A DNA stretch of 59,808 nucleotides from a virus. Below are positions 6,621-52,443 of the stretch, one piece after another. The translations under genes and the position numbers were made by a program. Every line of letters starts with the position of its first letter. Position 1 is the first letter of the stretch. The notes beneath the pieces were generated by a model. The model was given only the letters and a program-made list of their open reading frames with translations. It ran no database searches and was not told where the DNA came from. The DNA is taken from IMG/VR virus record IMGVR_UViG_3300044638_005822, positions 1 to 59,808 of that record, one strand, 5' to 3'.

Positions 6621-7885
6621 CGTTTTGAGAACGGATTCCACGCGGTGCCAGTTGGCGTGACTTCCGCGCGCCTCTCCCGCGCAGCCGGATCACCGCCTGC
6701 GCTCGGCGTTGCGCCTTTGAGTTCGCTGTTGTGCCGTTTGAGGCGGGCGATCTCCGCGTTGGCGGCTTCAAGCTGCCGCACGGCGAGCGGGAATGCCGCT
6801 GCCTGCGCGGTGAGGCGGACGCGCTCGGCGACTGGCTGCTCGGAGAACCACTTGTCGTCAGCCGCTTCCACGAAGCCGCGCACTGAATTGACGCGCTCCG
6901 CCAGTTCTTTGTCGGCGGTGTCCTTGAGGAATGGCGCGGCGGCGAGCACGGATTCGTCCCACACCTTCGGGATTGCGGCCTTCCTCTCGCTCACGTTCTT
7001 CGCCGCGGCGAGATCGCGCTGCTCGCGCTCTTGGGCGAGAGTGTTGTTGTAGATGTCCTTGGCCTTGGCGAGCACTTCGTTGCGCTTCTCTTGGAGCTTC
7101 GCGTGGTCGTCCAGAAGCCCGGCCAGCTTGTCGGCCTTGCGCTTGGGCCAGTCGGCGGTCACGTCCTCGAACCTGTTGTCCTGTGCGCGGCCTTTAAGCG
7201 AGGCGAGTTCGATCAGGTCTTCGGCTGCCACGTCGTAGTCGGCGGAGAACTCCTTGAACTGCGCCTCGATTTCGCTCATCGGCTTGGCGATTTCGTTCTT
7301 GAACATCTGCGTCTTTTCCACGCGGCTGCCGGCGAGTTCCGATTCCTGCTCGTCAATGCGCTTTTGCAGCGCCTCGCGTTCCTTTTGAAGTGACTGCACC
7401 GCATCGCTATCCGGCGCGGTTTTCTTTGCAGCTTCCAGTTCAGCGCGGATGGCGGCGGCCTCGGCGAGCGCGGCCTTGGCTTGCCGTTTGGACTCCCGCG
7501 CGTCAAAGTTGCTTTGCTTGAGGTGTTCGCGTGCCGACTTCGACATGCCCTTTGATGCGTCCTCGATCCGCTTGTTGAGTTCGTCGTCCGTCGTCTCGTC
7601 CGTGATCTCAGACTTTGCGGTGGTTTCCTTGACGGGTTCGGCTTTCGGCTTTTCCGGTTCCGCGATCTCGGGCGCTTCGACCTTCTCGCCGCCGGGCGTT
7701 TTCTCCGCCAGCTTCTTCAGGTTTGCGAGCGTCATCGGCTCGTAGTTGCTCGGAGCCGGATCGGGGTCTTGGAGTCTCGCTGAGCGCGCGGTGTGCTCTT
7801 TCAGCACGGCGTCGTCTTTGATTTCGGCGAAAGGCTGAAACGTGAGCGGTTCAGCGACGGGTAGTGTGGCGGTTTCGGTAGGCAT
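6617..7885 (-). CDS. Capsid scaffolding-like protein
   Basis: 422 residues, highly charged and mostly helical. An acidic, Pro-rich N-terminus is followed by long coiled-coil stretches (EREALQKRIDEQESELAGSR, DHAKLQEKRNEVLAKAKDI), then a short basic C-terminus (WNPFSKR) that could contact capsid protein. No enzymatic motif is seen. Its position between portal and major capsid genes is that of a phage scaffold. The ATG is preceded by AACCCTGACACC, the same leader type as the next upstream gene. The antisense HNH gene now separates it from the capsid gene. Confidence 0.75.
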   Translation of the reverse strand: MPTETATLPVAEPLTFQPFAEIKDDAVLKEHTARSARLQDPDPAPSNYEPMTLANLKKLAEKTPGGEKVEAPEIAEPEKPKAEPVKETTAKSEITDETTDDELNKRIEDASKGMSKSAREHLKQSNFDARESKRQAKAALAEAAAIRAELEAAKKTAPDSDAVQSLQKEREALQKRIDEQESELAGSRVEKTQMFKNEIAKPMSEIEAQFKEFSADYDVAAEDLIELASLKGRAQDNRFEDVTADWPKRKADKLAGLLDDHAKLQEKRNEVLAKAKDIYNNTLAQEREQRDLAAAKNVSERKAAIPKVWDESVLAAAPFLKDTADKELAERVNSVRGFVEAADDKWFSEQPVAERVRLTAQAAAFPLAVRQLEAANAEIARLKRHNSELKGATPSAGGDPAARERRAEVTPTGTAWNPFSKR

Positions 7886-29400: not shown

Positions 29401-31078
29401 TGTGGAAAACTCCCATCACTGCGTTTTGCAGCGCGAACGCGGTGAACGTGCCGGGGGCTTCGTCTGCGATTGCCTTGAAATCTATGGGCTTGTTGTGAAC
29501 CGCCAAATCGTAAAGCCCTTCCGCGAAAGTAACGGCGGCAGCATCCTTCACTGCCTTTCCGGTCATCGCCATCAGGATGCCCTTGGCGGGCTTGAGTATC
29601 CCCATCGCTCCACCGGCGATGAAGGAACGAACGCCCTCGTCAATCGGGTTCACGTCCTTGTTGCCCTCGACGTACCGCTGCTGAACGCCGCTGCTGAATC
29701 CAGCGCGCCCCATTGCGACACCGCTCTGTAATGCGCTCTCCCATCTAGCCGCGGCGGTTCCTGGCTCTAGCGACACCTTGGCTGTTTGCGCCATCTTGCC
29801 GACGGTGGTGAGCGCGGGCGGGGTTTTCTGGAACATTGACACAAGAAACGGCACGAACGATCCGACCTGCGCCCAACCAGGGTGAGCACGGGCGTTGGCT
29901 TCACGTTGCGCCTGATCCACTTGCCCAAAGACCTTGTTCTGCAACCATAGCGCCGCCGATCCGCCGCTGGCCCCGCCGACCATTGCGGTGGAAACGTCGC
30001 CCTTTGACGCAGCCGCGCCAATGGCGGTTCCCGCTGCGGTGCCAAGTGCCGGCAGAATAGCGGAGCCGAACTCCTTCACAGCCGTCACAAGACCTCCCTG
30101 CGCCTTGGGTCGTGAGGCGAACTCCTTGTCCATCTCCACTCCTGACGGAATCAGTCTTGCTGCTTCTTCGGATGTCAGAAGCCCCATGCGTTCAGCCGCC
30201 AACATCGTTTCTTCGGCTTTGCCCTCCTCCGGCTCGATGTTGAGCATTCCATTTGTCCGAACAACCCTGAACGGCAATTTTCGGCCTTTAGGATTCCCCG
30301 CACTGCTCTGGGTGGATTCAAGCTCGGCGAGTTTTGCGTTCCTACGATACGCAATGGTGGCCTCCCGCTCCGCTGCCGCTACGCCAGCCGCATCCTCGCC
30401 TTTGCTGAATGCATAATCGCGGGCGTCTAGTTTTGCGCGTTCTTCACCAGCTACCTCACTGCGATACAGCAGATCGTTCGCAAGCGGTTCCTTACCCTTG
30501 CTTCTGGCGAAATCCCTGGCTGATAATTTCTCAGCTTGGCTTGCCGTAAGATCATAGCGATCCTTCCAGAATTCCTCCGCGCTGGGCGTCCAGTCGAGCG
30601 GCTGCACGCCGATGGATGGTTTACCCTGCTCGCCATCCAGCTTCATCACGCCAGATCCGCGTGTCTGCGCGCTCATACCGCCTGCGACCTCTAGGCTTCG
30701 CTTTACGACGCCACTCACTTGTTCCGGTGTGACCTTCTGCCGCTCGGTGAAGACCTGCATGGACTTGTCCGCCGCAGCCCTGCGACGCTTTTCATCGGCG
30801 TCCCTACTGTTGTGCTCTGCCATCTTCCCCTGAAGAAATGCCGTCGTGCTGTTGTAAAACGAATCCGCTTCGGCTGCATCCAGTGACGATTCGGCGCTCG
30901 CGAAGGCTTCGTCGAAAACCTCCGCAGTGCGATCTAGATACTTCTGGCGAGTCGGCGCGTCTGCATTTTTCCAGTCGTCGGATGCGTAGAATTGATCCGC
31001 TTCGAGGGCCAAACTTTTCAACTCATCACGCGGATGCGGAGTCGGCGCGATCTCGGATGCGGCGGAAGCGGTAGGCAT
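20462..31078 (-). CDS. Giant polyvalent virion/ejection protein with HExxH metalloprotease motif
   Basis: 3538 residues, about 18% of the genome. Visible features in order: charged helical N-terminus; a glycine-zipper membrane-active region near 325-380 (ALGTAAGTAIGAAASKGDVS, GGASGGSAALW); Pro/Ala-rich linkers; several small basic domains; a zinc-metalloprotease motif MHEAAGHGG (HExxH) near residue 1795; a very long Ala/Glu/Lys coiled-coil region (about 2200-3000); and a C-terminal domain ending in EYDYTGGEVKLARIGAALIEG. This multidomain layout matches polyvalent or internal virion proteins that are ejected with DNA to form a conduit or act early in the host. Domain identities beyond the protease motif are tentative. 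Confidence 0.75.
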   Translation of the reverse strand: MPTASAASEIAPTPHPRDELKSLALEADQFYASDDWKNADAPTRQKYLDRTAEVFDEAFASAESSLDAAEADSFYNSTTAFLQGKMAEHNSRDADEKRRRAAADKSMQVFTERQKVTPEQVSGVVKRSLEVAGGMSAQTRGSGVMKLDGEQGKPSIGVQPLDWTPSAEEFWKDRYDLTASQAEKLSARDFARSKGKEPLANDLLYRSEVAGEERAKLDARDYAFSKGEDAAGVAAAEREATIAYRRNAKLAELESTQSSAGNPKGRKLPFRVVRTNGMLNIEPEEGKAEETMLAAERMGLLTSEEAARLIPSGVEMDKEFASRPKAQGGLVTAVKEFGSAILPALGTAAGTAIGAAASKGDVSTAMVGGASGGSAALWLQNKVFGQVDQAQREANARAHPGWAQVGSFVPFLVSMFQKTPPALTTVGKMAQTAKVSLEPGTAAARWESALQSGVAMGRAGFSSGVQQRYVEGNKDVNPIDEGVRSFIAGGAMGILKPAKGILMAMTGKAVKDAAAVTFAEGLYDLAVHNKPIDFKAIADEAPGTFTAFALQNAVMGVFHKFQHRREMAKMAGKSAAAANTAAAEAAEAQAKRFRKDGFIESAIASEALAETHRRAAKQDEKAATEQYWQDVAKAQKRAVEHTQANEGPLTERAAYGRTGDVYDAFGNVQRKPPADGGGPGVTFQGQPLARAQSDAGLVSAEGAQDAKTPLYDAFGNVQRKVGEPKNEKAQSVPSVQKADESVRLPQKEVAPAAPSPEPVTPAAAKPVNHLSLLPNLSDKEIAALSPEQRRERMVILNAAVVYQKHLLSQIEEWPRKDWTNEQHRSHATFVTKLNEANNALADMRNNPPPAKIDLTESQKLKIGKAQAVPVRSGEFPQPGYTEQQPAAAPQAAKPVEQMTPEEYFTNELKRRSVVTLLPIKDVIANDPKPSDSAARKSWAEKLTQKLASAISDRSDIPADWLSNYPLNREDVLALGYLKQGDKYVFRAGKKGVDVTPNIFKLSPQKYYETLSLDELKALREKGDTSRERGFIEDIRQRDMDALTERTRTAALSEQIQAVKTAIANERPVSVALAKAIEMPMETTGWTQRGDLWHPPEAKPTPQAPAKTQRAMSNSEIEGVRKAQMPVIEDATSGIKERYESALGKKLTGDQVFDIAVKITKGIHQKGGRANIQDILDSARKDQIISANAAAATAPAAAPAVPQAEGGIFGYSWADIRSKQQGGTLAALIRGNAPKATESDFAVLEKHGMDWLYDNVKVGIIDRLGLPVDRPSRKAVEAKPPAQSFTEKVRAKIVPGAKVSVQLVRGAKLAHPAIVRDVFLDSKGKPESVSVTFDGGKKKGITQTVPYGNVSLRPGVESRMLTNEQFEGMTKEEARKTRAAAAEFKKLVIEYPELGFYSGHLEAVAAGAQGEAAIKKARADAYVEAMIALGVHPDKADARDAVTQASLVEKMRELTKKPGMERKQYADFQEAKEEGDGEIKAGDLKYGKTINIGGEEMRVIDIDKDGVVTLQDGEKFGTQEVHPDESLMIKGEAPELAPTAPVAAKPETPTINVLKYNDSTKITGTADGGLYATVRTIKRKSGQMAYEVKGYSKAEGQHPDLEQTYEARGEQEAIDAAKEIARREIAKQTPEPATPKLRPSDGKGTGELLQGEAAPFNLVAETAADIAKREAREAAEQVAKEAKDAAEAKAKQDKEQGNLFDEDPFAIADAAPTTSLPVASVQRAVRVVAERLAGAMPHEVIADGSAFPDRVKEVFLERYGASGDLNRIRGAVVGGKIYINAAAIENPRQAIETFMHEAAGHGGVDALLQAFGEKATTQLDAMLKRLFPDEHAAVKRSYPSREQVSETLAKIMEGVGPEMSAQHRTRWQRVVDWLRNALNKLGVKQWSKNDVMALLRRGVDAVRKQRARAADVNTLSGSELTYAAREAGVVLTPEQTMYVINRDPAVTADVRARVSEARGDGPKMSAKDEQVPPDIQAVREKLYTEQQKRAGRSFTPTAPSVRYPTEAELRPTSETLKMGELQRKKVENLKAGDVVNYADAERTVSSVRKQENGASYWVDFTDGNSVKFSHGIELPIRKTGTLRDEARKGIRKTQGSEAAPEAGALSGEIEQGLSIVSDEDTGNLRFRSGAESMGARQGDVSDRTGGGSESPEAEQAGSRRAKPDYRKDRQTWRARPIGVDSFATASDYIQWVQGGRLIDRAGNPIRPDTSDIRFSLKDENPEATSTTKKAVMDKEREVAMLQGSADKLLQDIRKSGRPPTVEEMQQIAAIDSLIAKRQAEIQAEASNVAQGATPPEINIADPNAEPPDREETGESGPRTYGGKFDSMDAQRAERGLPPLARRFRKANRVLWDAAVKRFETEPKWADRLVDEISSGEKTVLTDEEFAGVFAQQIDLHNKRQEAADRARDPNLSEEEQRDALDQFQYYEKKLQASEILKGMAGSEAGAALQSLKLMANEDFSLAAMEARERKAKQSSLTLEEVDRIRDEATRIAKAQADLDARKAATEAAERIANAEAKIAEWSKIPSRVLEYAKQKVNEWVSAGNAASERLRARAGQVNVGVDPTILGDIFLFARGKIAQGMESFGNFAASTASEFGEWVRPYLKPAWDKAMKYLNTNQPGRKVSSKQKARQQAATKDAASIEDGIRAMAEEGLPDDMGRYVKQLANEYVKSGATTVKGVMARLHAFLDPVMGNPTDDVLLDLWTDYGKGKAATEDALKRLQSQIRQEALIVRQIIDAEAALVRSQAGEDVGDYLKLTGQQRVPVRDQARALAQQLNELKKKIPPPQGTAESRRQSALDALEKRTRNRIKDLRFEIAKGERTIKNRGVTPTSPNLEALRAELATVEAEHLAVFGRREATPEQKLKSAIKSAERAEQKALAELEAAKRGVFTRPVQKGAETRNEVLVIRARADAARAETQALKELASPPLSDAQKRLDAALVARERWEQMLAGEQQPTSRQPQESLTQLEEDARMEIAAMRELAAQIRRDAKPATDPDDAKVRALEAAAAEYERRVNESDFTAKSKTTTVDSARVAQARALRDAALAAYNAAKNAAGVTEQTKIANRKAAMLRQIADLTDRLAKSDFEKRPPRPPVDLSKDPEAVRIASDLQEIKSNYAKRLLHYIKERRGGYEKFTDAMWTAITAERSLMGSGDLSAPRQGIRMAYSHPIMAAKAIWRSIRTIFSQKQAVSYEAERKLRPNYALYKPMKIQMPSVEAEAHDRMAEEGVRSNIEDWADIKLSGNPLLVLPKLVPKLLGHYVRASSRTFTTFLNELAADVADYRINELRDKPMSKIEKEALGDMINSGRGRGLKAGAGKLAQFVFYSANFLAARAKNLSGYHIWRRNSSMRIRKIALKEQFRAIAGWMVVSAISRYFYGDTGDDEDMFDKAKRLFKMKVTDSDARMEYDYTGGEVKLARIGAALIEGISTTIHAMRSGQEEADKQRAFKSYATIGREIRSISAPWVGVATDLFTGSNYDGKVPTVPSIARDLTVPLAWRSADEFFERAGFAKTVVAKLQEAIGVGVSVTRDKTAPKERRYSR

Positions 31079-31089
31079 TGGATTGATGA

Positions 31090-32616
31090 TTACGCCGCGG
31101 TGCTTGACGAGTCAATGCTTACGACGGCTTCGGAGGCTGCTTTTTTAAGCGGCGTTCTGGCACCGTACGGATCAACCGTCACGGCGACGGGTTCGCCATC
31201 CTCGTCTTGATCGAACTCAATCGTGCTGCCGTCCGCAACGTAACCGCCAGATGCGGCTGCTGCATCTTTGTCGTAGCCGAGCGATTGAAGCGTCTGGCTC
31301 ATGGATTCCGATGCTGCATTGAACTCGGCACTCAGTGCCGGGTCGGAATCAATTTCTTCACGCCTGCCCGAAAAGCGCGAAAAGTCGCTCGCGGATGCGG
31401 TGAGAGTGTCCATGTCTGGCGCGGCTGACGCCTGCGGCTGCGATGCCGGTTCCTTGAGGCGATCCAAGAAGGTCTTCCGCTTCGTGGGCACGGGCGCTGT
31501 CGGCGTGGCGGACGCGGGTGGCGCTCCGGTCTTTGATGACGCGGGAATGATGGGCGCTGCGCCTGTTGCTGACGGCGCTGTGGGCTGCTCTGGCTGCTTT
31601 CCGGGAGTCTTGTCGGGCACGGGTGGGGCGGTGGCTTTCTCGGGTGTTGGCTGATCGGGAGTCTCGTCGTAGATGGTGTCCAGCAGCCGGTCGCGCTCTG
31701 CACGTATCCGCCGCTTCTCTTCTGCGATCTTCTCCTTGGACTTCCCTTTCGTCTTGGTTGTGTTGTCCAAGTCGTCCAAGTCAATGTTTAGGGCTTTCAC
31801 CCTCTCCTTTGCGACAAACCGACGCGCTGCGGCGTCCGCCTTCTCCTTCGCTGCGGCGGCTGCGGCAGCGGCCTTCTCGGGATTGACCTGCGGAATCACT
31901 GGCACGCTTTTCCTGTATTGCACCTCTCCGCCCGCACCCAAGCTGACTGACTCACCCGGAAGCGTGGCGAGCTTGCGCGCTTCCTCAACGCGCTTCTTGA
32001 GGACCGCCTGCTCTACTGCGAAAGAATCGATCTGCACAAACCTCCCCGTCCTGCGGTCGTATGAGGCCATGTCGCGGAGTTCTTCAAACCCAAGGGCTTC
32101 TTCCGCCTTCCTGTATTTATCCTGTAACTTGCCTGGGATATACTCGATTCCGTGCGGGCCGAACTTCATTCCAGCGTCGGCCATTTTGATGGATGCGATG
32201 AGATGCCCCTTGTCCGTCACCGAGATATTCGGGTATCTGGCATTCACCGCTGACAAGTGTGAAGGGAAGTCAGGATCGAACACGTTCAACCCATGAATGG
32301 CGATCCGGTATGCCGGTTCCTCGCGATCCTGCGCGAAGGCTTTTTCCCGCTTTAAGAGAGCGTCTGTTTCCGCGCTAACCCGTCTTTCGTTCGCTCTCTG
32401 CTGATCGATGTGCTTCTGGAGGATGCGCTGGTCAGCCCTATCCGCGTCAGCCTTGATCTGCGCGTCCCTCACTTCTTCACGGTCGCGGTCGTGCTGCTCT
32501 TTCTCAGCCCTTGCCTTGGCATCTTGGATTCTGGCTGCAAGCTGGAGCGCAGCCGGGCCTGAACCGGCACCCATTGACGCCCGAGGCAACTGAGGTTGAT
32601 TGCGAAAATTTCCCAT
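31090..32616 (-). CDS. Helical internal virion protein candidate
   Basis: 508 residues. A Gly/Pro-rich start (PRASMGAGSGPAA) leads to a long charged coiled coil (about 25-100). A globular part follows (HGLNVFDPDFPSHLSAVNA, KYRKAEEALGFEELRDMASYDRR), then a Pro/Ala/Thr-rich low-complexity linker and an acidic C-terminus (IEFDQDEDGEPVAVTV). It is directly upstream of the giant protein, which it probably accompanies in the virion. No enzymatic residues were found. Confidence 0.6.
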   Translation of the reverse strand: MGNFRNQPQLPRASMGAGSGPAALQLAARIQDAKARAEKEQHDRDREEVRDAQIKADADRADQRILQKHIDQQRANERRVSAETDALLKREKAFAQDREEPAYRIAIHGLNVFDPDFPSHLSAVNARYPNISVTDKGHLIASIKMADAGMKFGPHGIEYIPGKLQDKYRKAEEALGFEELRDMASYDRRTGRFVQIDSFAVEQAVLKKRVEEARKLATLPGESVSLGAGGEVQYRKSVPVIPQVNPEKAAAAAAAAKEKADAAARRFVAKERVKALNIDLDDLDNTTKTKGKSKEKIAEEKRRIRAERDRLLDTIYDETPDQPTPEKATAPPVPDKTPGKQPEQPTAPSATGAAPIIPASSKTGAPPASATPTAPVPTKRKTFLDRLKEPASQPQASAAPDMDTLTASASDFSRFSGRREEIDSDPALSAEFNAASESMSQTLQSLGYDKDAAAASGGYVADGSTIEFDQDEDGEPVAVTVDPYGARTPLKKAASEAVVSIDSSSTAA

Positions 32617-45230: not shown

Positions 45231-45274
45231 GCGGATTCCGCGAGTGTTGTCAACGTCTATTTCGCGGAAATCGC
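45231..45274 (-). promoter_or_regulatory. Promoter with overlapping GCGATTTCCGCGA operators
   Basis: Minus strand: TTGACA (45253-45248), a 17-base spacer, CAATCT (45230-45225). The spacer holds GCGGATTCCGCGAGT (45231-45245, plus strand sense). A second site TTTCGCGGAAATCGC lies at 45260-45274, just upstream of the -35. Both match sites at 46085-46271. Binding would block RNA polymerase for the gene at 44772-45218. Confidence 0.6.
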
Positions 45275-45305
45275 ATTTTCTTTTTGCTGTGTAGTCGCGG
45301 CGTGA

Positions 45306-45833
45306 CTACGCCACACGCCAGACTCGCACGCCGTCGCCCTCGCGCTGCGTCGCGGTTTTCCATTTTCGTGATCGCCCCCACGACATAAACGCGCTTGCTT
45401 TGGCTCGGTCGGCGAGGAGTGTTGAATCACCCGGAAGCATGCCGTGCAGTTCATCGTACCAACGCGCGCGTCTCGGCTTTGGTGTGCGTGTGGCAATGTT
45501 TGCAGCCCGCAAGTTAAATCCGATTTCTGGATCGGTCGCGCGCAGTTCATTGATCCAATGTTGCTCGCGCTCAATGAGAACGACGGGCGCGCATCGTTCG
45601 AGAATCTCTATGGCAAAATTGATCTTGCCGGCGGCTCTGATTGCCTTGGCGATCATGGATGTATCAGAGGCCGCGCCGTGATCGCCGTATCGGCGAGCGA
45701 TGTCTTTTGATGCTCCAACGTAAATCTTGCCGGTTGCTTGGCAGCGCAGTTTATACACTCCACACACGCCGCTCAAAGGGTTGCGCGTCCGCACCGTCGG
45801 TCCCGTGGGGAGTGGAATATCGTGCGAGATCAT
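45306..45833 (-). CDS. GIY-YIG nuclease
   Basis: 175 residues from ATG 45833 (MISHDIPLPTGPTVRTRNPL). The nuclease domain has GVCGVYKLRCQATGKIYVGASKDIARRYGDH (GIY-YIG catalytic strand with the Arg/Tyr pair), SMIAKAIRAAGKINFAIEILERC and EREQHWINELRATDPEIGFNLR. The C-terminal region (about 110-175) is basic and may bind DNA. It overlaps the regulator gene by 4 bp and is likely co-regulated with it. Homing endonuclease or small defence/repair nuclease are both possible. Confidence 0.75.
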   Translation of the reverse strand: MISHDIPLPTGPTVRTRNPLSGVCGVYKLRCQATGKIYVGASKDIARRYGDHGAASDTSMIAKAIRAAGKINFAIEILERCAPVVLIEREQHWINELRATDPEIGFNLRAANIATRTPKPRRARWYDELHGMLPGDSTLLADRAKASAFMSWGRSRKWKTATQREGDGVRVWRVA

Positions 45834-46048
45834 TTGGACGATTTCCGTTTTTTGAGCCGCGCGAGAATGCCCTCCTCGGTAACAGGCCACTGGCGGCGCT
45901 TGCTGGCAGCGCGCTCTATGTCCCAATAGCAGCGCGGCGGAATATCGAGGACGGCGGCGCACTCGGCCTGGGTCAAGCCAAGGCGTTTACGCTCGGCGAT
46001 GAGTTGATCGGTGAATGTGACGGGTTGTGGCGGTTGTTCTGTAATCAT
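45830..46048 (-). CDS. XRE-type HTH regulator (CI/Cro-like)
   Basis: 72 residues from ATG 46048 (MITEQPPQPVTFTDQLIAER). The HTH is KRLGLTQAECAAVLDIPPRCYWDIERAAS (about 25-53), a clear LTQAECAAVL XRE-family core, and a basic tail ends in KKRKSSK. No C-terminal dimerisation or peptidase domain, so Cro-like in size. Six operator-like sites sit between this gene and the plus-strand block and two more near 45240, so autoregulation and control of the neighbouring promoters are likely. Confidence 0.7.
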   Translation of the reverse strand: MITEQPPQPVTFTDQLIAERKRLGLTQAECAAVLDIPPRCYWDIERAASKRRQWPVTEEGILARLKKRKSSK

Positions 46049-46084
46049 GCCAGTGACGCTACATGCCCCGTCTTTTTCGTGCAA

Positions 46085-46271
46085 GCGGATTCCGCAAATT
46101 GCAAAAAGCGATTTCCGCGAACATTGGCACGGACTTTGCTTGGCGACTTCCGCCGACTTTCTGCCATAGGTAAAACGCGGATTCCGCGCATTGCTGGCAC
46201 GGGCTTTGCTTGCGAGCCTCTGAAATTATTTGCGATTTCCGCGAAATAGTAGTTGCGCGATTTCCGCGAGT
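46085..46271. promoter_or_regulatory. Six-site operator array, consensus GCGATTTCCGCGA
   Basis: Sites at 46085-46099 (GCGGATTCCGCAAAT), 46108-46122, 46143-46157, 46177-46191, 46232-46246 and 46257-46271, spaced 23-55 bases. The core is close to palindromic (ATTTCCGCGAAAT). They occupy the divergent promoter region between the HTH gene and the plus-strand early block. They probably bind the HTH regulator and control both directions. Confidence 0.65.
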
Positions 46272-46330
46272 GATTATTCTCCGCCTCGTTCAGCAGTGCA
46301 TCCCGCACGGCTGGCGTAACTCCGAAAACT

Positions 46331-46346
46331 CCAACTCATCCCGACA
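46331..46346 (+). promoter_or_regulatory. CCCGACA leader, first copy
   Basis: CCAACTCATCCCGACA directly before the ATG at 46347. The same word is repeated at 46813-46827 before the next gene. No purine-rich Shine-Dalgarno site is present. Confidence 0.6.
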
Positions 46347-46808
46347 ATGAAAAAGACACTAACACCAGAACAGACAGCAAAGCGCGACGCACGCCGCGCA
46401 GCATTCCAGGCGCTCGCAAAGCGTATCGCAGCCATGACACCGACGGCGCGCGAAGCACTCGCGGCGCAATCCCCCATCGTCAACGTTGAGGGCCGGATGC
46501 TCTCCGCATTCAATCAGTGCATGATCGCGATGCAGATTCCATCCGCGACGGTCGTTGGCGGTTTCCGGCAATGGCTCAAAGCGGGCCGCGCGGTGATGAA
46601 AGGACAGCACGGCGCTTCCATCTGGGTGCCATGCGGCGCGAAGACGACGGACGCAAGCGGGGAACAGTCCACCGAGAAAACGTTCTTCACGTCCGGGACC
46701 GTCTTTGATGTTTCGCAGACCGAGGCGATCGAGGACGCGAACGAGGACAGCGCGCCCGGCACTTGGGCCGACGTGATCGAAACCAACGCAGCACTCCAGC
46801 CCGCTTAA
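46347..46808 (+). CDS. ArdC/DUF1738-like antirestriction-type protein (N-domain only)
   Basis: 153 residues. SAFNQCMIAMQIPSATVVGG then FRQWLKAGRAVMKGQHGASIWVPC then FFTSGTVFDVSQTEAIED resembles the N-terminal ssDNA-binding domain of ArdC-type antirestriction proteins. The C-terminal metalloprotease-like domain usually found in ArdC is absent. First gene of the plus-strand early block, next to the operator array. Role in protecting incoming DNA is inferred. Confidence 0.6.
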   Translation: MKKTLTPEQTAKRDARRAAFQALAKRIAAMTPTAREALAAQSPIVNVEGRMLSAFNQCMIAMQIPSATVVGGFRQWLKAGRAVMKGQHGASIWVPCGAKTTDASGEQSTEKTFFTSGTVFDVSQTEAIEDANEDSAPGTWADVIETNAALQPA

Positions 46809-46827
46809 TTTCCAACTCATCCCGACA

Positions 46828-47166
46828 ATGAAAAACACGATCAACCCCACCGCCCTTTATTGGGCATCATTCAACCGCTTCGAGTTGCGTATCTCCGGCG
46901 AATGCGTCATGGAATGCTCGCACTCCGGCCCTTGCGACGGCGACGTTGCGCGCCACGCCCCTAAGGTCCGCGCGCAAATGGAGGCCGACAACTTCACGAA
47001 TCGCCCCACGCCGGACAGCATCCGCGCGGAGCTGAAAGAATATGGCGCATGGGACGCGGAGGAACTGGCGGACGACGATCAGAATTGGCTCCGGCTTGTC
47101 TGGATCGCCGCTGGCAACGTCGCGGATGAGAAAAGCCCAGATTGCACGGCTCCCGTGCCCGCCTAG
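46828..47166 (+). CDS. Small protein of unknown function
   Basis: 112 residues, CCCGACA leader. MKNTINPTALYWASFNRFEL, a Cys/His region (ECVMECSHSGPCDGDV) and an acidic middle (AWDAEELADDDQNWLRLVW). It has the size and composition of early phage proteins that are often small host-takeover factors, but nothing specific is known. Confidence 0.55.
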   Translation: MKNTINPTALYWASFNRFELRISGECVMECSHSGPCDGDVARHAPKVRAQMEADNFTNRPTPDSIRAELKEYGAWDAEELADDDQNWLRLVWIAAGNVADEKSPDCTAPVPA

Positions 47167-47177
47167 CCCGTTCCCGT

Positions 47178-47205
47178 CGCTCTCCGGCATCTGTGCCGGG
47201 GAGCG
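47178..47205 (+). other. Strong intercistronic hairpin
   Basis: A 12-bp stem with one G-T wobble, CGCTCTCCGGCA (47178-47189) with TGCCGGGGAGCG (47194-47205), loop TCTG. No T-tract, so more likely an mRNA processing or stability element than a terminator. Confidence 0.6.
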
Positions 47206-47271
47206 AGGGGAGCGAGCCAATTCCGGCAGACTCCACAAACCAAAAAACACACAGCCGCACGGCACACTAAA

Positions 47272-47727
47272 ATGAAAACACTGAACCGCAAAGACAACAA
47301 ATCCACCCGCACGATCCGCTTTTTCGACCGCATGTCGAATCTCGGATTCACCCGCGCCGAGGCGGACACGCTCCGGCTCGCACAGTTGACACTCCACCGC
47401 TGGGCGGAACTGGAGTGCGGAGACGGCAACGATCACGCCTCTTGGGCCATCGAACGCGATGAGGAAACCGGCAAGCCCTACATGGTGACATATCCGCACA
47501 ACGGCGCATCCCGCCGGCATCGCATCGCAGATCGGGAAGCGGGCGCGCTCAAACGGATCGCCGCGGTCCTTGCGGAGCATGGCACCCTCTGGAGCTATCA
47601 CCAGACCGATCCCCGCGGATGCGCGCTCTATGTGGGCCGCGTCGCGGATCTCATCGAGCACGGCACCGGCAAGCAGATGGACATTGCATCGTGCTACAAT
47701 CGCGGGATCGCCGTTGTCGTCGGCTAA
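47272..47727 (+). CDS. Small protein of unknown function
   Basis: 151 residues. Basic N-terminus (MKTLNRKDNKSTRTIRFFDR), helix (TRAEADTLRLAQLTLHRWAELE), then beta segments ending in LWSYHQTDPRGCALYVGR and YNRGIAVVVG. The SYHQTDPRGCALYVG segment has a compact, conserved look. The leader is CACACTAAAATG. Role unknown. Confidence 0.6.
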   Translation: MKTLNRKDNKSTRTIRFFDRMSNLGFTRAEADTLRLAQLTLHRWAELECGDGNDHASWAIERDEETGKPYMVTYPHNGASRRHRIADREAGALKRIAAVLAEHGTLWSYHQTDPRGCALYVGRVADLIEHGTGKQMDIASCYNRGIAVVVG

Positions 47728-47745
47728 CTTTCACCACTCCACACG

Positions 47746-47997
47746 ATGAAAAATACACCGAACGCACAGCTTATCGCGGAACTTGATCCCGACGAATATG
47801 ACACCGAGGCCGCGAAGATTGACGACCGCAACGGCAACTTTTCGCCGGATCGGGTGAGCGACTACCTGCAAACGAACATCGTCCTTGAGAGCCTAGCCAA
47901 TGGGCAATTCACGCAAGCGAAAGCACAGTGTGAAGAATACGGGTTACACTATCCAAAAATGCGCCGCGCCGCAGGACTTGACCCGTTCCCTGGCTAA
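47746..47997 (+). CDS. Small protein of unknown function
   Basis: 83 residues, MKNTPNAQLIAELDPDEYDT then VSDYLQTNIVLESLANGQFTQAKAQCEEYGL. Leader CACTCCACACGATG. No function evident. Confidence 0.5.
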   Translation: MKNTPNAQLIAELDPDEYDTEAAKIDDRNGNFSPDRVSDYLQTNIVLESLANGQFTQAKAQCEEYGLHYPKMRRAAGLDPFPG

Positions 47998-48003
47998 CCG
48001 ACC

Positions 48004-48047
48004 CCGCACAACCCGCCCCTTGCACATCGCATGGGGCGGACGTGCGG
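48004..48047 (+). other. Two-part hairpin in the leader of the next gene
   Basis: Stems CCGCAC (48004-48009)/GTGCGG (48042-48047) and CCGCCCC (48013-48019)/GGGGCGG (48033-48039) separated by short internal loops. No T-tract. Confidence 0.6.
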
Positions 48048-48072
48048 AGCCGATTCCCGGCACCGCTGAACC

Positions 48073-48092
48073 AAACAACCCGACAAGATACC
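48073..48092 (+). promoter_or_regulatory. CCCGACA leader
   Basis: AAACAACCCGACAAGATACC directly before ATG 48093. Confidence 0.6.
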
Positions 48093-49043
48093 ATGAAAAC
48101 ACAGACGAAAATCGACGACCTAAAAAAACACATCGCCGCCGAGTCCGCACGTCACAGGGCGGACGGCGATCTTCACGTCCTCACGGCGGCCCTTCCATCG
48201 CAGGGGGCGGAATGCTGCCACGCATTGCTCGACCGCTACATGACGAGCAACAACGCAGCCACCGACGCAGCCGCCCCGCTCGCCAAGCTGCCAACGTCTC
48301 GCCGGGAACTCGCCGCCAGCACCGCAAAGGCCGCGCTTGAAATCGGACGCAGGGCCGCATTACAGGGCGAGTCTTACAGCGGAAAAACAGACTACCGGGC
48401 AACGTGGGGCGATTCCGCGAACCCCTCCGCGGGCACCTACACCGACAAGGGCGATCAGTATTCTCGGGGATGCACCTACCGGAAGATCGACGCGGATCAC
48501 GTCGTACGCCTCTCGCCGGAGTGGTCGCCGCTCCTCGTCGAGCGCGAGGAGTTGCGCACGCTCTCCGAGCGCGAGGGCTTGTCGCTGATCGGCATTCACG
48601 AAGACGGGCGATGCACATGGGTGAAGCGCAAAGGGAAAACCATCACTTCCGAGGTTGGATGGATCGCCTTTTTTGGCTCAATCTGCTACCACTCCACGAT
48701 CTCACAATCGGATGCCGGCAAGGGGCTCGCCCGCAAGCTCGACGCCGCTCGACGCGAGTGGAGTGGCGAACAGATCCGCCAACTGGACCGCGTGAAATCG
48801 GCAAAAGAGGAACGCCGCGCACGGCTCGTCGCCCGGCTTTGCGGTTCCGTCGTCGCCACGGTCGCCGACGCCCGCGCACTGGGCTTTTGCCCGCCGGGGA
48901 TCGAGCAATTCCAAGCACAGCACGGGATCGGCTCATCCGCGCCGCTCCCGTCACTCATCCGCACGGGCAACCCCTCCGCAATCCGGCTCGCGCTCGCCAT
49001 CGCGCGCCGAGTGAACCGGCACCCCGAAGCGGTCGCCGCGTAG
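48093..49043 (+). CDS. 316-residue protein of unknown function
   Basis: Starts MKTQTKIDDLKKHIAAESAR; contains TYTDKGDQYSRGCTYRKIDADHVVRLS, EDGRCTWVKRKGKTITSEVGWIAFFG and VKSAKEERRARLVARLCGSVV. Mixed alpha/beta with a basic middle; no catalytic motif recognised. It is the largest gene of the early block. Its DNA contains one copy of a 13-base word (CACGTCACAGGGC, 48148) shared with three later sites. Confidence 0.6.
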   Translation: MKTQTKIDDLKKHIAAESARHRADGDLHVLTAALPSQGAECCHALLDRYMTSNNAATDAAAPLAKLPTSRRELAASTAKAALEIGRRAALQGESYSGKTDYRATWGDSANPSAGTYTDKGDQYSRGCTYRKIDADHVVRLSPEWSPLLVEREELRTLSEREGLSLIGIHEDGRCTWVKRKGKTITSEVGWIAFFGSICYHSTISQSDAGKGLARKLDAARREWSGEQIRQLDRVKSAKEERRARLVARLCGSVVATVADARALGFCPPGIEQFQAQHGIGSSAPLPSLIRTGNPSAIRLALAIARRVNRHPEAVAA

Positions 49044-49070
49044 TCTCGACAACCCACAAAGCAAAAAACC

Positions 49071-49283
49071 ATGAAAACAGTCAAAATAACATTCGCCGAC
49101 GGAACCTCAGACATCGTATGCAACGCCAGCGTCGCACAGGATCGGATCGCAGCCCGCTACGGAGTCGAGACGCACACCCTTGTCTCCGACGACAGCGGGG
49201 ATCGAGAATTGATCTGGCTCGATGAGGAAGGCGCCGAAAACGACGACGGCGCGCAGGCCGTCGCCGAAATCCGCCCCGCGTAG
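49071..49283 (+). CDS. Small protein of unknown function
   Basis: 70 residues, MKTVKITFADGTSDIVCNAS then DSGDRELIWLDEEGAEND. Acidic C-terminus. Leader ends in CAAAAAACC. Confidence 0.5.
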   Translation: MKTVKITFADGTSDIVCNASVAQDRIAARYGVETHTLVSDDSGDRELIWLDEEGAENDDGAQAVAEIRPA

Positions 49284-49293
49284 TCGCGCCACA

Positions 49294-49320
49294 GCGCGCC
49301 CGGAATGCCACCGGACGCGC
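49294..49320 (+). other. Intercistronic hairpin
   Basis: GCGCG-C-CCGG (49294-49303) pairs with CCGG-A-CGCGC (49311-49320), loop AATGCCA, one mismatch. Confidence 0.5.
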
Positions 49321-49336
49321 AAGGCGCAATTCCGCG

Positions 49337-49353
49337 CAACAACCCGACAAACC
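49337..49353 (+). promoter_or_regulatory. CAACCCGACAAACC leader
   Basis: Copy directly before ATG 49354. Further copies at 49584-49600 (before 49601), 49801-49817 (before 49818) and 51208-51222 (before 51223). The leader replaces a Shine-Dalgarno site in this block. Confidence 0.65.
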
Positions 49354-49563
49354 ATGAACACATACACGATGCACAACCTCACGACCGGAAAAACCGTCAA
49401 GAAAAACCAGAAGACCGAACCGAAGCTGGCGGGCTTCATCTGCGTATCTCGCGAAAGAGTCACACCCGAAACCAATAGCCGCGGAGATCGGCTATTCCGC
49501 GACGCAAACAACCGCCCGTATTACGCAGCGGCGAACGCCGACGGATCGCACTACCAGCCGTGA
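49354..49563 (+). CDS. Small basic protein
   Basis: 69 residues, MNTYTMHNLTTGKTVKKNQK then GFICVSRERVTPET and RDANNRPYYAAANADGSHYQ. No function assigned. Confidence 0.5.
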   Translation: MNTYTMHNLTTGKTVKKNQKTEPKLAGFICVSRERVTPETNSRGDRLFRDANNRPYYAAANADGSHYQP

Positions 49564-49600
49564 TCAAGACCGCACACTCAATCCAACAACCCGACAACCC

Positions 49601-49789
49601 ATGAAATCACACGACCTGAACTCACTCACGCTCGCCACGGCATCCGCGCGCGGCATCACCTTCGCCGAAGCGCGCCGCGAACTGTCCCGCCGGGGCGCAT
49701 TCGTGCGCCAAACGAACCGCCGCCGCCGCGAGATCGACAGAATCCGCGCCGAGCAAGCCCGCGCAACGGCGGACAGGATCAGCCCCTAG
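49601..49789 (+). CDS. Small basic protein
   Basis: 62 residues, MKSHDLNSLTLATASARGIT then RRELSRRGAFVRQTNRRRRE. Arg-rich and possibly nucleic-acid-binding. Leader CAACAACCCGACAACCC. Confidence 0.5.
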   Translation: MKSHDLNSLTLATASARGITFAEARRELSRRGAFVRQTNRRRREIDRIRAEQARATADRISP

Positions 49790-49817
49790 CACAGCAACCC
49801 AAACAACCCGACAAACC

Positions 49818-50261
49818 ATGAAAAACATCACACTTATCACCGCCAAAAACGGCCTTTCGTTCGAGCTTGTCCCCAAGCCCGTCCGCAACGCCGATCTCGG
49901 TCCTCAAATTGTCGTCCACGACGGCGATTTTCGCGTTGCCTCTTACTGCCTCTCCACCTTTCGCGAGAACGTCGCGAAAAAGCAGGGCGTGTGCATCACG
50001 GCTGGCAAATTCGTGAAATATCGAGCCATCGAGTCCGACACGCTCGCCGAGTTGGTCGCGGAAGCTGACGCCCTGCTTTCCGGTACACCGCCGCCGCCCA
50101 CGTCACAGGGCGCGCCGGAACTGCTCGCCGCGCTGGAGCGACTGGCAAACGCCGTCGATGCCAGTTGCCGGGCCATCACCACCGCAGCACTTATCGAGCT
50201 AGACGACGCGACGATCAACGCCCGCGCCGCCATTTCCAAAGCGACGGGGGGTGCGAAGTGA
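49818..50261 (+). CDS. Protein of unknown function
   Basis: 147 residues, MKNITLITAKNGLSFELVPK then VASYCLSTFRENVAKKQGV; the C-terminus is Ala-rich and helical. The stop overlaps the GTG of the next gene. Carries one copy of the CACGTCACAGGGC word at 50099. Confidence 0.5.
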   Translation: MKNITLITAKNGLSFELVPKPVRNADLGPQIVVHDGDFRVASYCLSTFRENVAKKQGVCITAGKFVKYRAIESDTLAELVAEADALLSGTPPPPTSQGAPELLAALERLANAVDASCRAITTAALIELDDATINARAAISKATGGAK

Positions 50262-50452
50262 GCGCCGCAACCGCAAAGCCCCGCGAGCCAATGATCCCCT
50301 ATTGCACTTCCGATATGGAATGGGAAGCCTGCAAGCGTCTCGCCGCTGAATTATGGGCATCGGGCCGGTACAGCGCCGTTACGACCCGCCGCCGCGAGCC
50401 TGAAGGCACTAAGCAATTCGGCAGAATCTACGTGCGGAGGGTGCAGCCATGA
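50258..50452 (+). CDS. Small protein of unknown function
   Basis: 64 residues from GTG 50258 (VSAATAKPREPMIPYCTSDM). The C-terminus is basic (TTRRREPEGTKQFGRIYVRR). Coupled to both neighbours by overlaps. Confidence 0.5.
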   Translation: MSAATAKPREPMIPYCTSDMEWEACKRLAAELWASGRYSAVTTRRREPEGTKQFGRIYVRRVQP

Positions 50453-51147
50453 AGCCCGCCACGACGAAAGCGCACATCCTACGCGCAAAGCTGGCCGAAC
50501 TAGTCGCCCGCGGAGTGGACGGCGAGAGAGACAGCGCCGCCCGCAAGCTCGCGAGGCTGGAGGCCGCGTTCGACTTCACCGCGCCGAACCCGGACGGGGG
50601 CGATCTGTTCGTGAACACGCCCGGAGCATCGAGCGTGCGCCGCGGACAGTACGCGAGGCCGCTGGACGAGGTGTTCCACGACGGGGAGATCGCCGTGTTC
50701 GTGAAATTCGCCATCCTCGCAGCGTACAAAGTGGACGGCACGATCCGCGACAATCGGGACGGCACATTCACAGTGTCCGTCGAGGCGGAGATCGCGAGCA
50801 TGAAGACCCTCAACTTCATAGGGAAGACGCTCCACGACGCCTTCCGCGCCTTGCTCGCCGCATTCCTCAAGTTACCGGGCGCATCCGAGCGGGATTCCCG
50901 GATGTTCATCCGCGCCGTGTACGACGGTGCCTTGAACGACGAGAAGAAACCCGGCGAGAAGTTGCCGGAGCGGTCGCCGACGAAAACAGCCAAGGGGCGG
51001 AAACGCTCGCTTGTGAACGCGCCGGCACTTGCGCTCCACCCTTACACAATAGGACTTGAAATGGGTCGCCGCGTGCGCCTGTGCGTTCCCGTCGAGTCCA
51101 TCACTGGCGAACTGGCGGAGGCCGAGCGGATCGCGCGGCTAAACTAG
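50449..51147 (+). CDS. Possible DUF2786-like protein
   Basis: 232 residues. The N-terminus (ILRAKLAELVARGVDGERDSAARKLARLE) resembles the DUF2786 start, where helices precede a zinc or metal site. The rest includes DGTIRDNRDGTFTVSVEAEIASMKTLNFIGKTLHDAFRALL and TIGLEMGRRVRLCVPVESIT. Family match is weak. Function unknown. Confidence 0.45.
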   Translation: MKPATTKAHILRAKLAELVARGVDGERDSAARKLARLEAAFDFTAPNPDGGDLFVNTPGASSVRRGQYARPLDEVFHDGEIAVFVKFAILAAYKVDGTIRDNRDGTFTVSVEAEIASMKTLNFIGKTLHDAFRALLAAFLKLPGASERDSRMFIRAVYDGALNDEKKPGEKLPERSPTKTAKGRKRSLVNAPALALHPYTIGLEMGRRVRLCVPVESITGELAEAERIARLN

Positions 51148-51153
51148 GACGAA

Positions 51154-51187
51154 ACGGGCGTGCAGCCCGTCGCCGGTAATGCCCGGC
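51154..51187 (+). other. Tandem hairpins
   Basis: ACGGGC-GTGCA-GCCCGT (51154-51170) and GCCGG-TAATGC-CCGGC (51172-51187) lie in the leader before the gene at 51223. No T-tract. Confidence 0.5.
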
Positions 51188-51222
51188 CTGATGAGTCCAC
51201 CACAAACCAACAACCCGACAAA

Positions 51223-51507
51223 ATGAACGAAATCCCGATCAAGTCCATCACCATCGCCCCCGGCTCCACCATCCACAAGACGATCCTCAACACCGGACAA
51301 CCCGGATTCGGCATCGCCACCGTCGTAACACTGGCGGACGGGCGAGAAGTTGCTTCCTTTGAATCATCGAGGCGGAAGCGCGATCTTCTGGCGTGGGTCA
51401 CGTCACAGGGCGAGAAGGCGAAATCCGGAAACATGAAAGCCCTATTCGACGGGGATTGTTACTACGGCACATCCACCGCCTATCGCATCGGCCCCGTCGC
51501 AGCCTGA
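51223..51507 (+). CDS. Small protein of unknown function
   Basis: 94 residues, MNEIPIKSITIAPGSTIHKT then RREVASFESSRRK-like segments and SGNMKALFDGDCYYG. Leader CAACAACCCGACAA. Carries one copy of the CACGTCACAGGGC word at 51399. Confidence 0.5.
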   Translation: MNEIPIKSITIAPGSTIHKTILNTGQPGFGIATVVTLADGREVASFESSRRKRDLLAWVTSQGEKAKSGNMKALFDGDCYYGTSTAYRIGPVAA

Positions 51508-51520
51508 ACCACTCCGAGCC

Positions 51521-51733
51521 ATGAAATCACTCGTAAAGCTGCAAGCCCTGCAAATAATGGCGAACTCCGCAAACAGCGGGATCACAGTCCACTCGTACCC
51601 GCAGCAGGACAAGCGCCGCACCGTGCCGATGTTCTTCGCCAACATCGGAACCGTCACGATCTCGCCCGTGCTCGACTATACCGCCCTGAATTGCTTCCTG
51701 ATGGGATACTCCAAGGCGATCCGCTCCAAATAA
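51521..51733 (+). CDS. Small protein of unknown function
   Basis: 70 residues, MKSLVKLQALQIMANSANSG then VPMFFANIGTVTISPVLDY. Leader CACTCCGAGCCATG. Confidence 0.45.
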   Translation: MKSLVKLQALQIMANSANSGITVHSYPQQDKRRTVPMFFANIGTVTISPVLDYTALNCFLMGYSKAIRSK

Positions 51734-51740
51734 CCACTCC

Positions 51741-51980
51741 ATGAAAAAACGCACAAACAAGCCCCCATCCATCACCACCACCGCCCTGCTCGCCATCGCG
51801 AACGCTGGGCACACAGCGAAACGCCTGCGCGCCGACCTGATGGCCGCCAACGTCGCGCTGACGGTCGAAGGAAACGACACCGCAGCCGAACGACTGGCGC
51901 ACGGGCATCTACTGCCAATCCTGCAAACGCTCGCGACGATCCAGGACTCCATCGCAGCCCTTCACAACGCTTGTAAATGA
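51741..51980 (+). CDS. Small helical protein
   Basis: 79 residues, MKKRTNKPPSITTTALLAIA then LRADLMAANVALTVEGNDTAAERLAHGHLL. Stop overlaps next ATG. Confidence 0.45.
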   Translation: MKKRTNKPPSITTTALLAIANAGHTAKRLRADLMAANVALTVEGNDTAAERLAHGHLLPILQTLATIQDSIAALHNACK

Positions 51981-52162
51981 ACCCCGATTCCCTTATCGTT
52001 TCCGCCTTGGTGGACACCCTAGAGCGCCGGCACGCCAACGGCCAGCTCTACACGGCCCGCGAGGTGCTCGCAGTGCTCCGCGGGTCCGCAGACATCCACG
52101 ACCCGTCAATCGCCGCGAAGATCGGCGCGTATCTGGACGAATCCCGCGCGGCGTCGCTCTAG
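51977..52162 (+). CDS. Small helical protein, end of early block
   Basis: 61 residues, MNPDSLIVSALVDTLERRHA then YTAREVLAVLRGSADIHDPS. Followed by the terminator at 52182. Confidence 0.45.
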   Translation: MNPDSLIVSALVDTLERRHANGQLYTAREVLAVLRGSADIHDPSIAAKIGAYLDESRAASL

Positions 52163-52181
52163 CAGCCAACTCGACACGACA

Positions 52182-52219
52182 AGCTCGCGCTTCACGTCAC
52201 AGGGCAGCGCGGGCTTTTT
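52182..52219 (+). terminator. Rho-independent terminator of the early block
   Basis: Stem AGCTCGCGCT (52182-52191)/AGCGCGGGCT (52206-52215) with a 14-base loop and TTTTT after it. The loop is the CACGTCACAGGGC word. It also lies at the 3' end of the convergent small gene at 52192. Confidence 0.75.
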
Positions 52220-52443
52220 CGTGCCGTCATCGGTCTTATCCTGCCCAGCCCGCGCGCGTATTGCTCGACGTGTGTTCTGTGCTCCTCGGCATAGCCGGGG
52301 CAGCGGCGGAGCAGCCACAAGTGGCAGGCGATGCGAATGTCGTCGCATGATTCGCCATGGCGTTTGCTGGATACGGCGTCGCGCTCCTTCCAGCGGGAGC
52401 GGTAGTTCAAATGGGTGTTGGCGGAATGGCTTATGTTTCTCAT
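52192..52443 (-). CDS. Small protein of unknown function
   Basis: 83 residues, MRNISHSANTHLNYRSRWKE then SCDDIRIACHLWLLRRCPGYAEEH. ATGA overlap with the upstream gene supports translation, but the stop lies inside the plus-strand terminator stem region. Confidence 0.5.
   Translation of the reverse strand: MRNISHSANTHLNYRSRWKERDAVSSKRHGESCDDIRIACHLWLLRRCPGYAEEHRTHVEQYARGLGRIRPMTARKSPRCPVT

Follow-up and report, generated by a model that had tools for sequence, protein, structure and literature searches.

A repeated leader free of Shine-Dalgarno sequence at exchangeable gene junctions of a phage early-type array

What marks the start codons of phage genes whose leaders cannot pair with the anti-Shine-Dalgarno sequence? 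The question is raised by an early-type array of small open reading frames (ORFs) in the complete IMG/VR virus record IMGVR_UViG_3300044638_005822, whose 59.8 kb are the window analyzed here and which we call G000 when setting it beside its relatives. An earlier note on this DNA had pointed to the word CCCGACA ahead of at least seven starts and had proposed that it replaces Shine-Dalgarno (SD) sites. Our analysis identifies a real conserved feature, best described as an SD-free leader, similar to start-associated sequences, inside exchangeable gene junctions. The leaders probably serve as SD-independent translation initiation regions, and they lie within longer stretches that are conserved while the genes around them change.

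Leaders placed directly before start codons

On the + strand of the array (46.3-51.3 kb), all seven copies of CCCGACA lie 0-7 nt upstream of an ATG, at the very starts that had been listed earlier. Their first bases are 46340, 46821, 48079, 49343, 49590, 49807 and 51214, and the spacing between the word and the ATG is 0, 0, 7, 4, 4, 4 and 2 nt, respectively. The array and its seven leaders are as follows.

46347-52162, + strand: early-type array, 15 small ORFs in a single direction
46331-46346, + strand: leader CCAACTCATCCCGACA, 0 nt to the ATG of an ArdC-N-like gene (46347-46808, ArdcN domain match)
46812-46827, + strand: leader CCAACTCATCCCGACA, 0 nt to ATG 46828
48073-48092, + strand: leader AAACAACCCGACAAGATACC, its CCCGACA 7 nt from ATG 48093
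49337-49353, + strand: leader CAACAACCCGACAAACC, preceding ATG 49354
49584-49600, + strand: leader CAACAACCCGACAACCC, preceding ATG 49601
49801-49817, + strand: leader AAACAACCCGACAAACC, preceding ATG 49818, whose ortholog in the relative G001 uses a GGAGG SD site
51208-51222, + strand: leader CAACAACCCGACAAA, preceding ATG 51223

The longer leaders, five in number, contain the commonest leader core, ACAACCCGACAA; the remaining two are CCAACTCATCCCGACA. Every one of the seven is followed directly by ATGAA, so that the commonest core reads ACAA-CCCG-ACAA and then ATGAA. The copy at 46828 is identical to the first copy (46347) over 25 nt (TCCAACTCATCCCGACAATGAAAAA). The genes downstream of the leaders are small, co-directional and mutually unrelated, and a non-coding gap lies 5' of the leader.

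Within positions -20 to -1, CCCGACA occurs at 7 of the 15 array starts; 20,000 within-gene shuffles that kept the A/C-rich composition averaged 0.11 such starts and never exceeded 2. No copy was found inside the array genes on the + strand, and none on the - strand of the array, so the outcome that the earlier note had named as refuting its reading, equal frequency within genes and before starts, is not what the array shows. The whole record holds 18 copies on both strands (9.2 expected), and the 11 that lie outside the array are dispersed over both strands at about chance level. A k-mer test against ATG that dispensed with gene calls had no power to pick out CCCGACA, because ATG is common.

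Further array genes begin after other A/C-rich leaders, and CCCGACA is therefore not obligatory. A second leader word, ACCACTCC, stands at 47733, 51508 and 51733 (+ strand) before the starts 47746, 51521 and 51741, all of which lack CCCGACA. Elsewhere in the record, ACCCTGACA is present in exactly two copies, which precede the starts of structural genes at 7885 and 8207. These had been described as related leaders; both exist, but two copies and one differing base do not establish kinship with CCCGACA.

An exact IMG/VR scan with ACAACCCGACANNNCATGA returned two relatives, the close G001 (IMGVR_UViG_3300044632_001625) and the distant G002; G004, G005, G006, G007 and G008 came from a looser scan. 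In G001 a similar array carries seven CCCGACA-ATG sites of seven, all on one strand. G002 has in common with the array only a 62-residue gene with the leader behind it, as far as ATGAAAA, and, at 52.2-52.5 kb, one further stretch. The word turns up in eight records, and several of these have little else in common. Across 84,980 bacterial and archaeal species, the exact scan with ACAACCCGACANNNCATGA gave 36 single hits on 36 different contigs, consistent with chance, so no sequenced species visibly uses the sequence repeatedly. Phage and plasmid collections yielded no DNA match, or distant ArdC domains only. The leader is a trait of a small phage group, and no visible habit of any sequenced host species.

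Leader properties and the case for SD-independent initiation

The leaders are short, asymmetric and nearly structure-free, with no inverted repeat. The mean fold energy from -30 to +20 is -1.5 kcal/mol at the leader starts and about -0.2 kcal/mol at those of G001, compared with -11.7 (standard deviation 5.2) for random windows of the array. A+C accounts for 83% of positions -25 to -1 of the leader starts. None of the leader starts of the array has an SD core, and the leader cannot pair with the anti-SD sequence, as the earlier description of its C/A-rich bases had stated.

SD sites are nevertheless present in the same array, at a contrasting class of starts without the leader, of which one example is listed here.

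50436-50448, + strand: SD-like GGAGG before ATG 50449, where ATGA overlaps the upstream stop

Clear SD sites precede this start in G000 and those at 30485, 31095 and 31487 in G001. In addition, the GTG start at 50258 is preceded by GGGGGG and its G001 counterpart at 30904 by AAGGAGG. Every SD-type start either overlaps the upstream gene or lies close behind it, whereas in G000 gaps of 19-95 nt separate the leader genes from the array gene before them, where there is one. CCCGACA therefore does not replace SD throughout the array, whose overlapping and abutting genes use SD sites. The leader is one of several A/C-rich leaders, used at non-coding gaps. On the - strand, none of 17 starts checked has a GGAG, GAGG or AGGA core.

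The best sequence evidence for what the leader does comes from gene 49818 (MKNITLIT...), whose start in G000 carries the leader. G001 has that leader with its first codons (ATGAAAAACATCAC) ahead of an additional gene at 30257; 228 nt further on lies the ortholog of gene 49818 (MNITLIT...), which starts from GGAGG. For this ortholog pair the ratio of nonsynonymous to synonymous substitution rates (dN/dS) is 0.39, which indicates constraint, so the gene is presumably expressed in both phages. Since one gene has the leader here and GGAGG in a relative, leader and SD seem to do the same job and to be interchangeable.

We put the probability that the CCCGACA leaders are SD-independent translation initiation regions at about 60%. 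Ribosomes would bind the open A/C-rich leader directly, by virtue of its accessibility; contacts with A-rich or ACA(A) enhancers, of the kind made by protein S1, would perhaps aid loading, and the host would make little use of SD. Ribosomes lacking SD pairing are guided by A-rich, low-structure start regions (PMC7043885). ACA motifs are translation enhancers, an ACAA repeat reportedly promotes SD-free initiation, and ACA is found in ligands of S1 (PMC3879156). SD sequences are scarce in some Verrucomicrobiota and in most Bacteroidota (PMC10783764). The non-canonical initiation signal that the earlier note had suggested is the best-supported reading, given the unstructured leaders, the SD site of the ortholog and an SD-poor genome, but the word is neither obligatory nor self-contained, being part of longer junctions.

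Several observations weigh against initiation as the role of the word. Eight of the array genes lack CCCGACA. ACA counts in the leaders do not exceed the expectation from composition, and although ACAA and AAC exceed theirs, this excess is not independent evidence, because the leaders are copies of one another. An A-to-C change abolished expression in E. coli (PMC7043885), so C-rich leaders are not simply A-rich enhancers. Scarcity of SD in the host is inferred from the phage. Finally, the identity of the leaders could stem from gene conversion rather than selection.

That identity exceeds what initiation would need, which would fit a regulator site. A phage or host RNA-binding protein (a translational repressor like RegA), or a GcvB-like small RNA rich in G and U, might silence or activate the array jointly through the repeat, and GcvB targets include ACA-containing start regions (PMC3879156). 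We regard a regulator site as improbable, since the spacing to the ATG varies from 0 to 7 nt, the repeat is not inverted, no candidate regulator was identified, and neither G000 nor G001 contains a complement of at least 10 nt to the leaders. On the last ground we also rejected a phage-encoded antisense RNA. Pairing with 16S rRNA was rejected as well: AACCCGACA matches the conserved UGUUGGGUU (E. coli 1083) over 9 bp, and a better match exists around nt 420, but the duplex energy with E. coli 16S rRNA (-15.4) is close to the mean for shuffled leaders (-14.8), 38% of which do equally well or better. The complementarity to a host or phage RNA that had been raised earlier thus did not rise above chance in E. 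coli 16S rRNA or in the phage sequences.

A position immediately ahead of the gene is also that of the -10 elements of leaderless genes, and the repeat might accordingly be a transcription signal before each gene, either a promoter element or the start of a leaderless mRNA. We consider this very improbable. No sigma-70-type promoter was found in 45.9-52.3 kb (1.7 in shuffles), gaps of 19, 28 and 37 nt offer a promoter little space, and the word is GC-rich and not -10-like. If SD-independent initiation is the correct reading, the leader is a start-associated sequence without SD, and this phage group supplies a leader/SD swap before the same ORF; the two natural alleles make start-codon marking without SD pairing directly testable.

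Conserved junctions and exchanged ORFs

Two features escaped the earlier note: the leader forms the 3' end of longer conserved junctions that run from stop to start, and some of these junctions contain structured RNA. Junction identity is 86-95% across six relatives, although the surrounding ORFs differ among them. Four features of the array illustrate this.

47167-47271, + strand: junction J3, a long hairpin directly behind the stop, followed by an A/C-rich leader that lacks CCCGACA
47998-48092, + strand: junction J1, a strong hairpin directly after the stop, a small hairpin, then the leader
49284-49353, + strand: junction J4, a hairpin directly after the stop, then the leader
51147-51198, + strand: type II hammerhead ribozyme core (Rfam lax match, strict search and fold)

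J1 is 86-91% identical in G001, G004, G005 and G006, and the ORFs behind it, of 316, 91, 78 and 62 residues in G000, G001, G004 and G005, respectively, have no mutual BLASTP match. The G001 counterpart of J3 carries CCCGACA and has different ORFs on both sides; flanking ORFs also differ on both sides of J4, where homology to G001 is weaker. All the homology that G007 and G008 have with the array is a 63-bp stretch (95% identity) at the junction of gene 51223, which ends 2 nt past the ATG; G008 has another ORF behind it.

Comparison of the edges of homology blocks between G000 and G001 points the same way. Ten of 14 edges are at start codons and three of the other four at stops; six of the 14 are no more than 25 nt from a leader, against an expectation of 0.84 (P 0.0001). 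Because the edges fall on junctions, ORFs have been swapped while the junctions stay. Orthologous junctions do not differ in the CCCGACA core and its immediate flanks, with synonymous divergence (dS) of up to 0.4 in neighboring genes. Hence the leader was kept, or copied, independently of the genes; recombination between junctions may have copied one leader before unrelated genes. In our main reading, a hammerhead or hairpin at some junctions would also process or protect the polycistronic mRNA, leaving each gene with its own leader. Junction conservation further offers a concrete route for swapping small accessory ORFs with their expression signals intact.

The same edges bear on the main competing explanation, in which the repeat is a by-product of descent. 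Duplication, deletion and swapping at short identical start-region sequences would have spread it, any unstructured A/C-rich leader would serve, and CCCGACA would have no specific role. Block edges at leaders are expected on this account, other genes of the array and of G004 and G005 start after unrelated A/C-rich leaders, and a gene insertion in G001 is flanked by start-region microhomology that contains no leader (ATGAAGCCCGCCAC, at 31095 and 31487). Against it stand the recurrence of CCCGACA in eight records, several with little else in common, and the constancy of the core while synonymous sites change. We judge a by-product of descent to be possible but doubtful.

The junction before gene 51223 contains the clearest structured RNA. 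From 51147 to 51198 we find stem II (GGAC/GUCC), GAAAC, stem III, GUC, stem I and CUGAUGA, with the invariant hammerhead core (CUGANGA, GAAA, UH) and its adjoining pairs present; position 51147 is also the final base of the upstream stop codon, TAG. The minimum free energy fold has exactly these three stems, I and III closed and II open. Rfam model RF02276 matches this junction at a lax threshold, with 25.6 bits against a gathering score of 37. A strict search for the core with three stems found one instance each in G000, G001 and G005 and none in 30 Markov-shuffled genomes. The copy in G001 is intact, and stems I and III of the G005 copy differ yet remain paired, a compensatory change. On sequence and fold, the element is assigned to the type II hammerhead ribozymes; were it to cleave at the predicted site, after 51171, the mRNA of gene 51223 would retain a leader of 51 nt. 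By inspection, loop I (UAAUGC) and the tail ACCACAAACC show no pairing over 4 bp. A hammerhead remnant in G008 (L241, 12214-12250) retains the 3' half, CUGAUGAG and GAAAC, with no proper stem III or 5' stem II, and is probably inactive.

A pattern scan of IMG/VR (L242-L361) found at least 154 distinct type II hammerheads with a GGAC/GUCC stem II at no fewer than 110 phage loci, up to five per locus. Among the matches listed, an ORF starts within 40 nt downstream in 128 of 148 (median 24 nt), and a stop lies within about 10 nt in 119 of the 133 with an upstream stop; an SD core is present in 92 of 138 leaders, and CCCGACA in none. These counts make the order stop-hammerhead-start a common phage arrangement, in keeping with the cutting of long transcripts proposed for such ribozymes (PMC3088659). 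What is unusual here is only the leader behind the hammerhead.

Other junctions have strong intergenic hairpins (47167-47240, 47998-48068 and 49284-49338, together with L237 6963-7030) that start directly after stops, with neither a U tract nor an Rfam match. Their fold z-scores are -5.75 for J3 (47167), -4.9 for J1 (47998) and -2.2 for J4 (49284). Rfam searches at lax thresholds gave no plausible match for the hairpins of J1, J3 and J4. A covariance model of J1 picks up the J1 copies of the relatives, a more distant hairpin in L237 (at 6967) and, as a weak hit, J3; at an E value of 0.21 this last match does not establish a common hairpin family, and the alifold consensus over all the hairpins is poor. 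They are possible processing, protection or ribozyme elements. An integron-type attC site was rejected on anatomy: the repeat is at the 5' ends of ORFs, non-palindromic and unstructured.

We tentatively extend the initiation reading to the junctions as a whole, as an idea that is on balance unlikely. They may be plug-in connectors, each a ribozyme or hairpin joined to a fixed SD-independent leader and conserved by selection, between which unrelated early or counter-defense ORFs are exchanged with exact boundaries at stop and start. Each ORF would then have a processed mRNA of its own for expression, and the host would make no use of SD.

Other features lie in and around the array. An interspersed repeat, CACGTCACAGGGC, lies at 48148, 50099, 51399 and 52193 (+ strand), with four sites also in G001; genes contain three of the copies, not all in the same reading frame, and the loop of a terminator-like hairpin at the array end contains the fourth. 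This probable end (52165-52220) has a CGCGGGC-type hairpin followed by TTTTTC, and a similar one is found in G001 and G005. Just upstream of the array, 45231-46270 is an operator-like region with several copies of GATTTCCGCG and GCGGATTCCGC, near which a short - strand ORF (45830-46084) resembles by eye an XRE-type regulator. The stretch 45843-46359 is 89% identical in G004 and G006.

Comparison with known systems

The A-rich and ACA enhancers described previously (PMC3879156, PMC7043885) resemble the leaders in being unstructured and A-containing, with ACAA near the start codon. They are, however, diffuse or single-gene signals, whereas here one fixed C-rich word precedes unrelated genes.

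For the type II hammerheads of prophages, the proposed role is to divide long phage transcripts into mRNAs of gene length (Perreault et al. 2011, PMC3088659). The element at 51147-51198 is like them in its intact CUGANGA/GAAA/GUC core, its closed stems I and III with stem II open, and its position between genes of a phage operon, and an array with an antirestriction-like gene parallels the A. tumefaciens ardA example. It differs from them in its score below the Rfam gathering threshold and in being followed by CCCGACA rather than SD. It may also differ in the pseudoknot between loop I and the 3' tail that most but not all type II hammerheads have, since none is evident here by inspection.

Functionally, the closest counterparts by analogy are the start-associated sequences (SAS) of cluster K mycobacteriophages (Pope et al. 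2011, PMC3203893; PMC11373665; PMC12699233), to which the leaders are unrelated in sequence and of which they are not family members. SAS have the consensus GGGATAGGAGCCC, with an SD core, and are often preceded by an extended start-associated sequence (ESAS), a 17-bp inverted repeat with a SigA-like promoter. The leaders differ from SAS in their A/C-rich CCCGACA word, which has no SD core, and from ESAS in that no sigma-70-type promoter was found and the hairpins follow stops and vary in sequence and length. SAS lie in the non-structural part of the genome, most of them in the same orientation, and their role is thought to be translational. Both are short, conserved, asymmetric sequences a few nucleotides before many starts of different gene families, and the placement that defines SAS is found here too, with seven of seven array copies at starts and none within genes.

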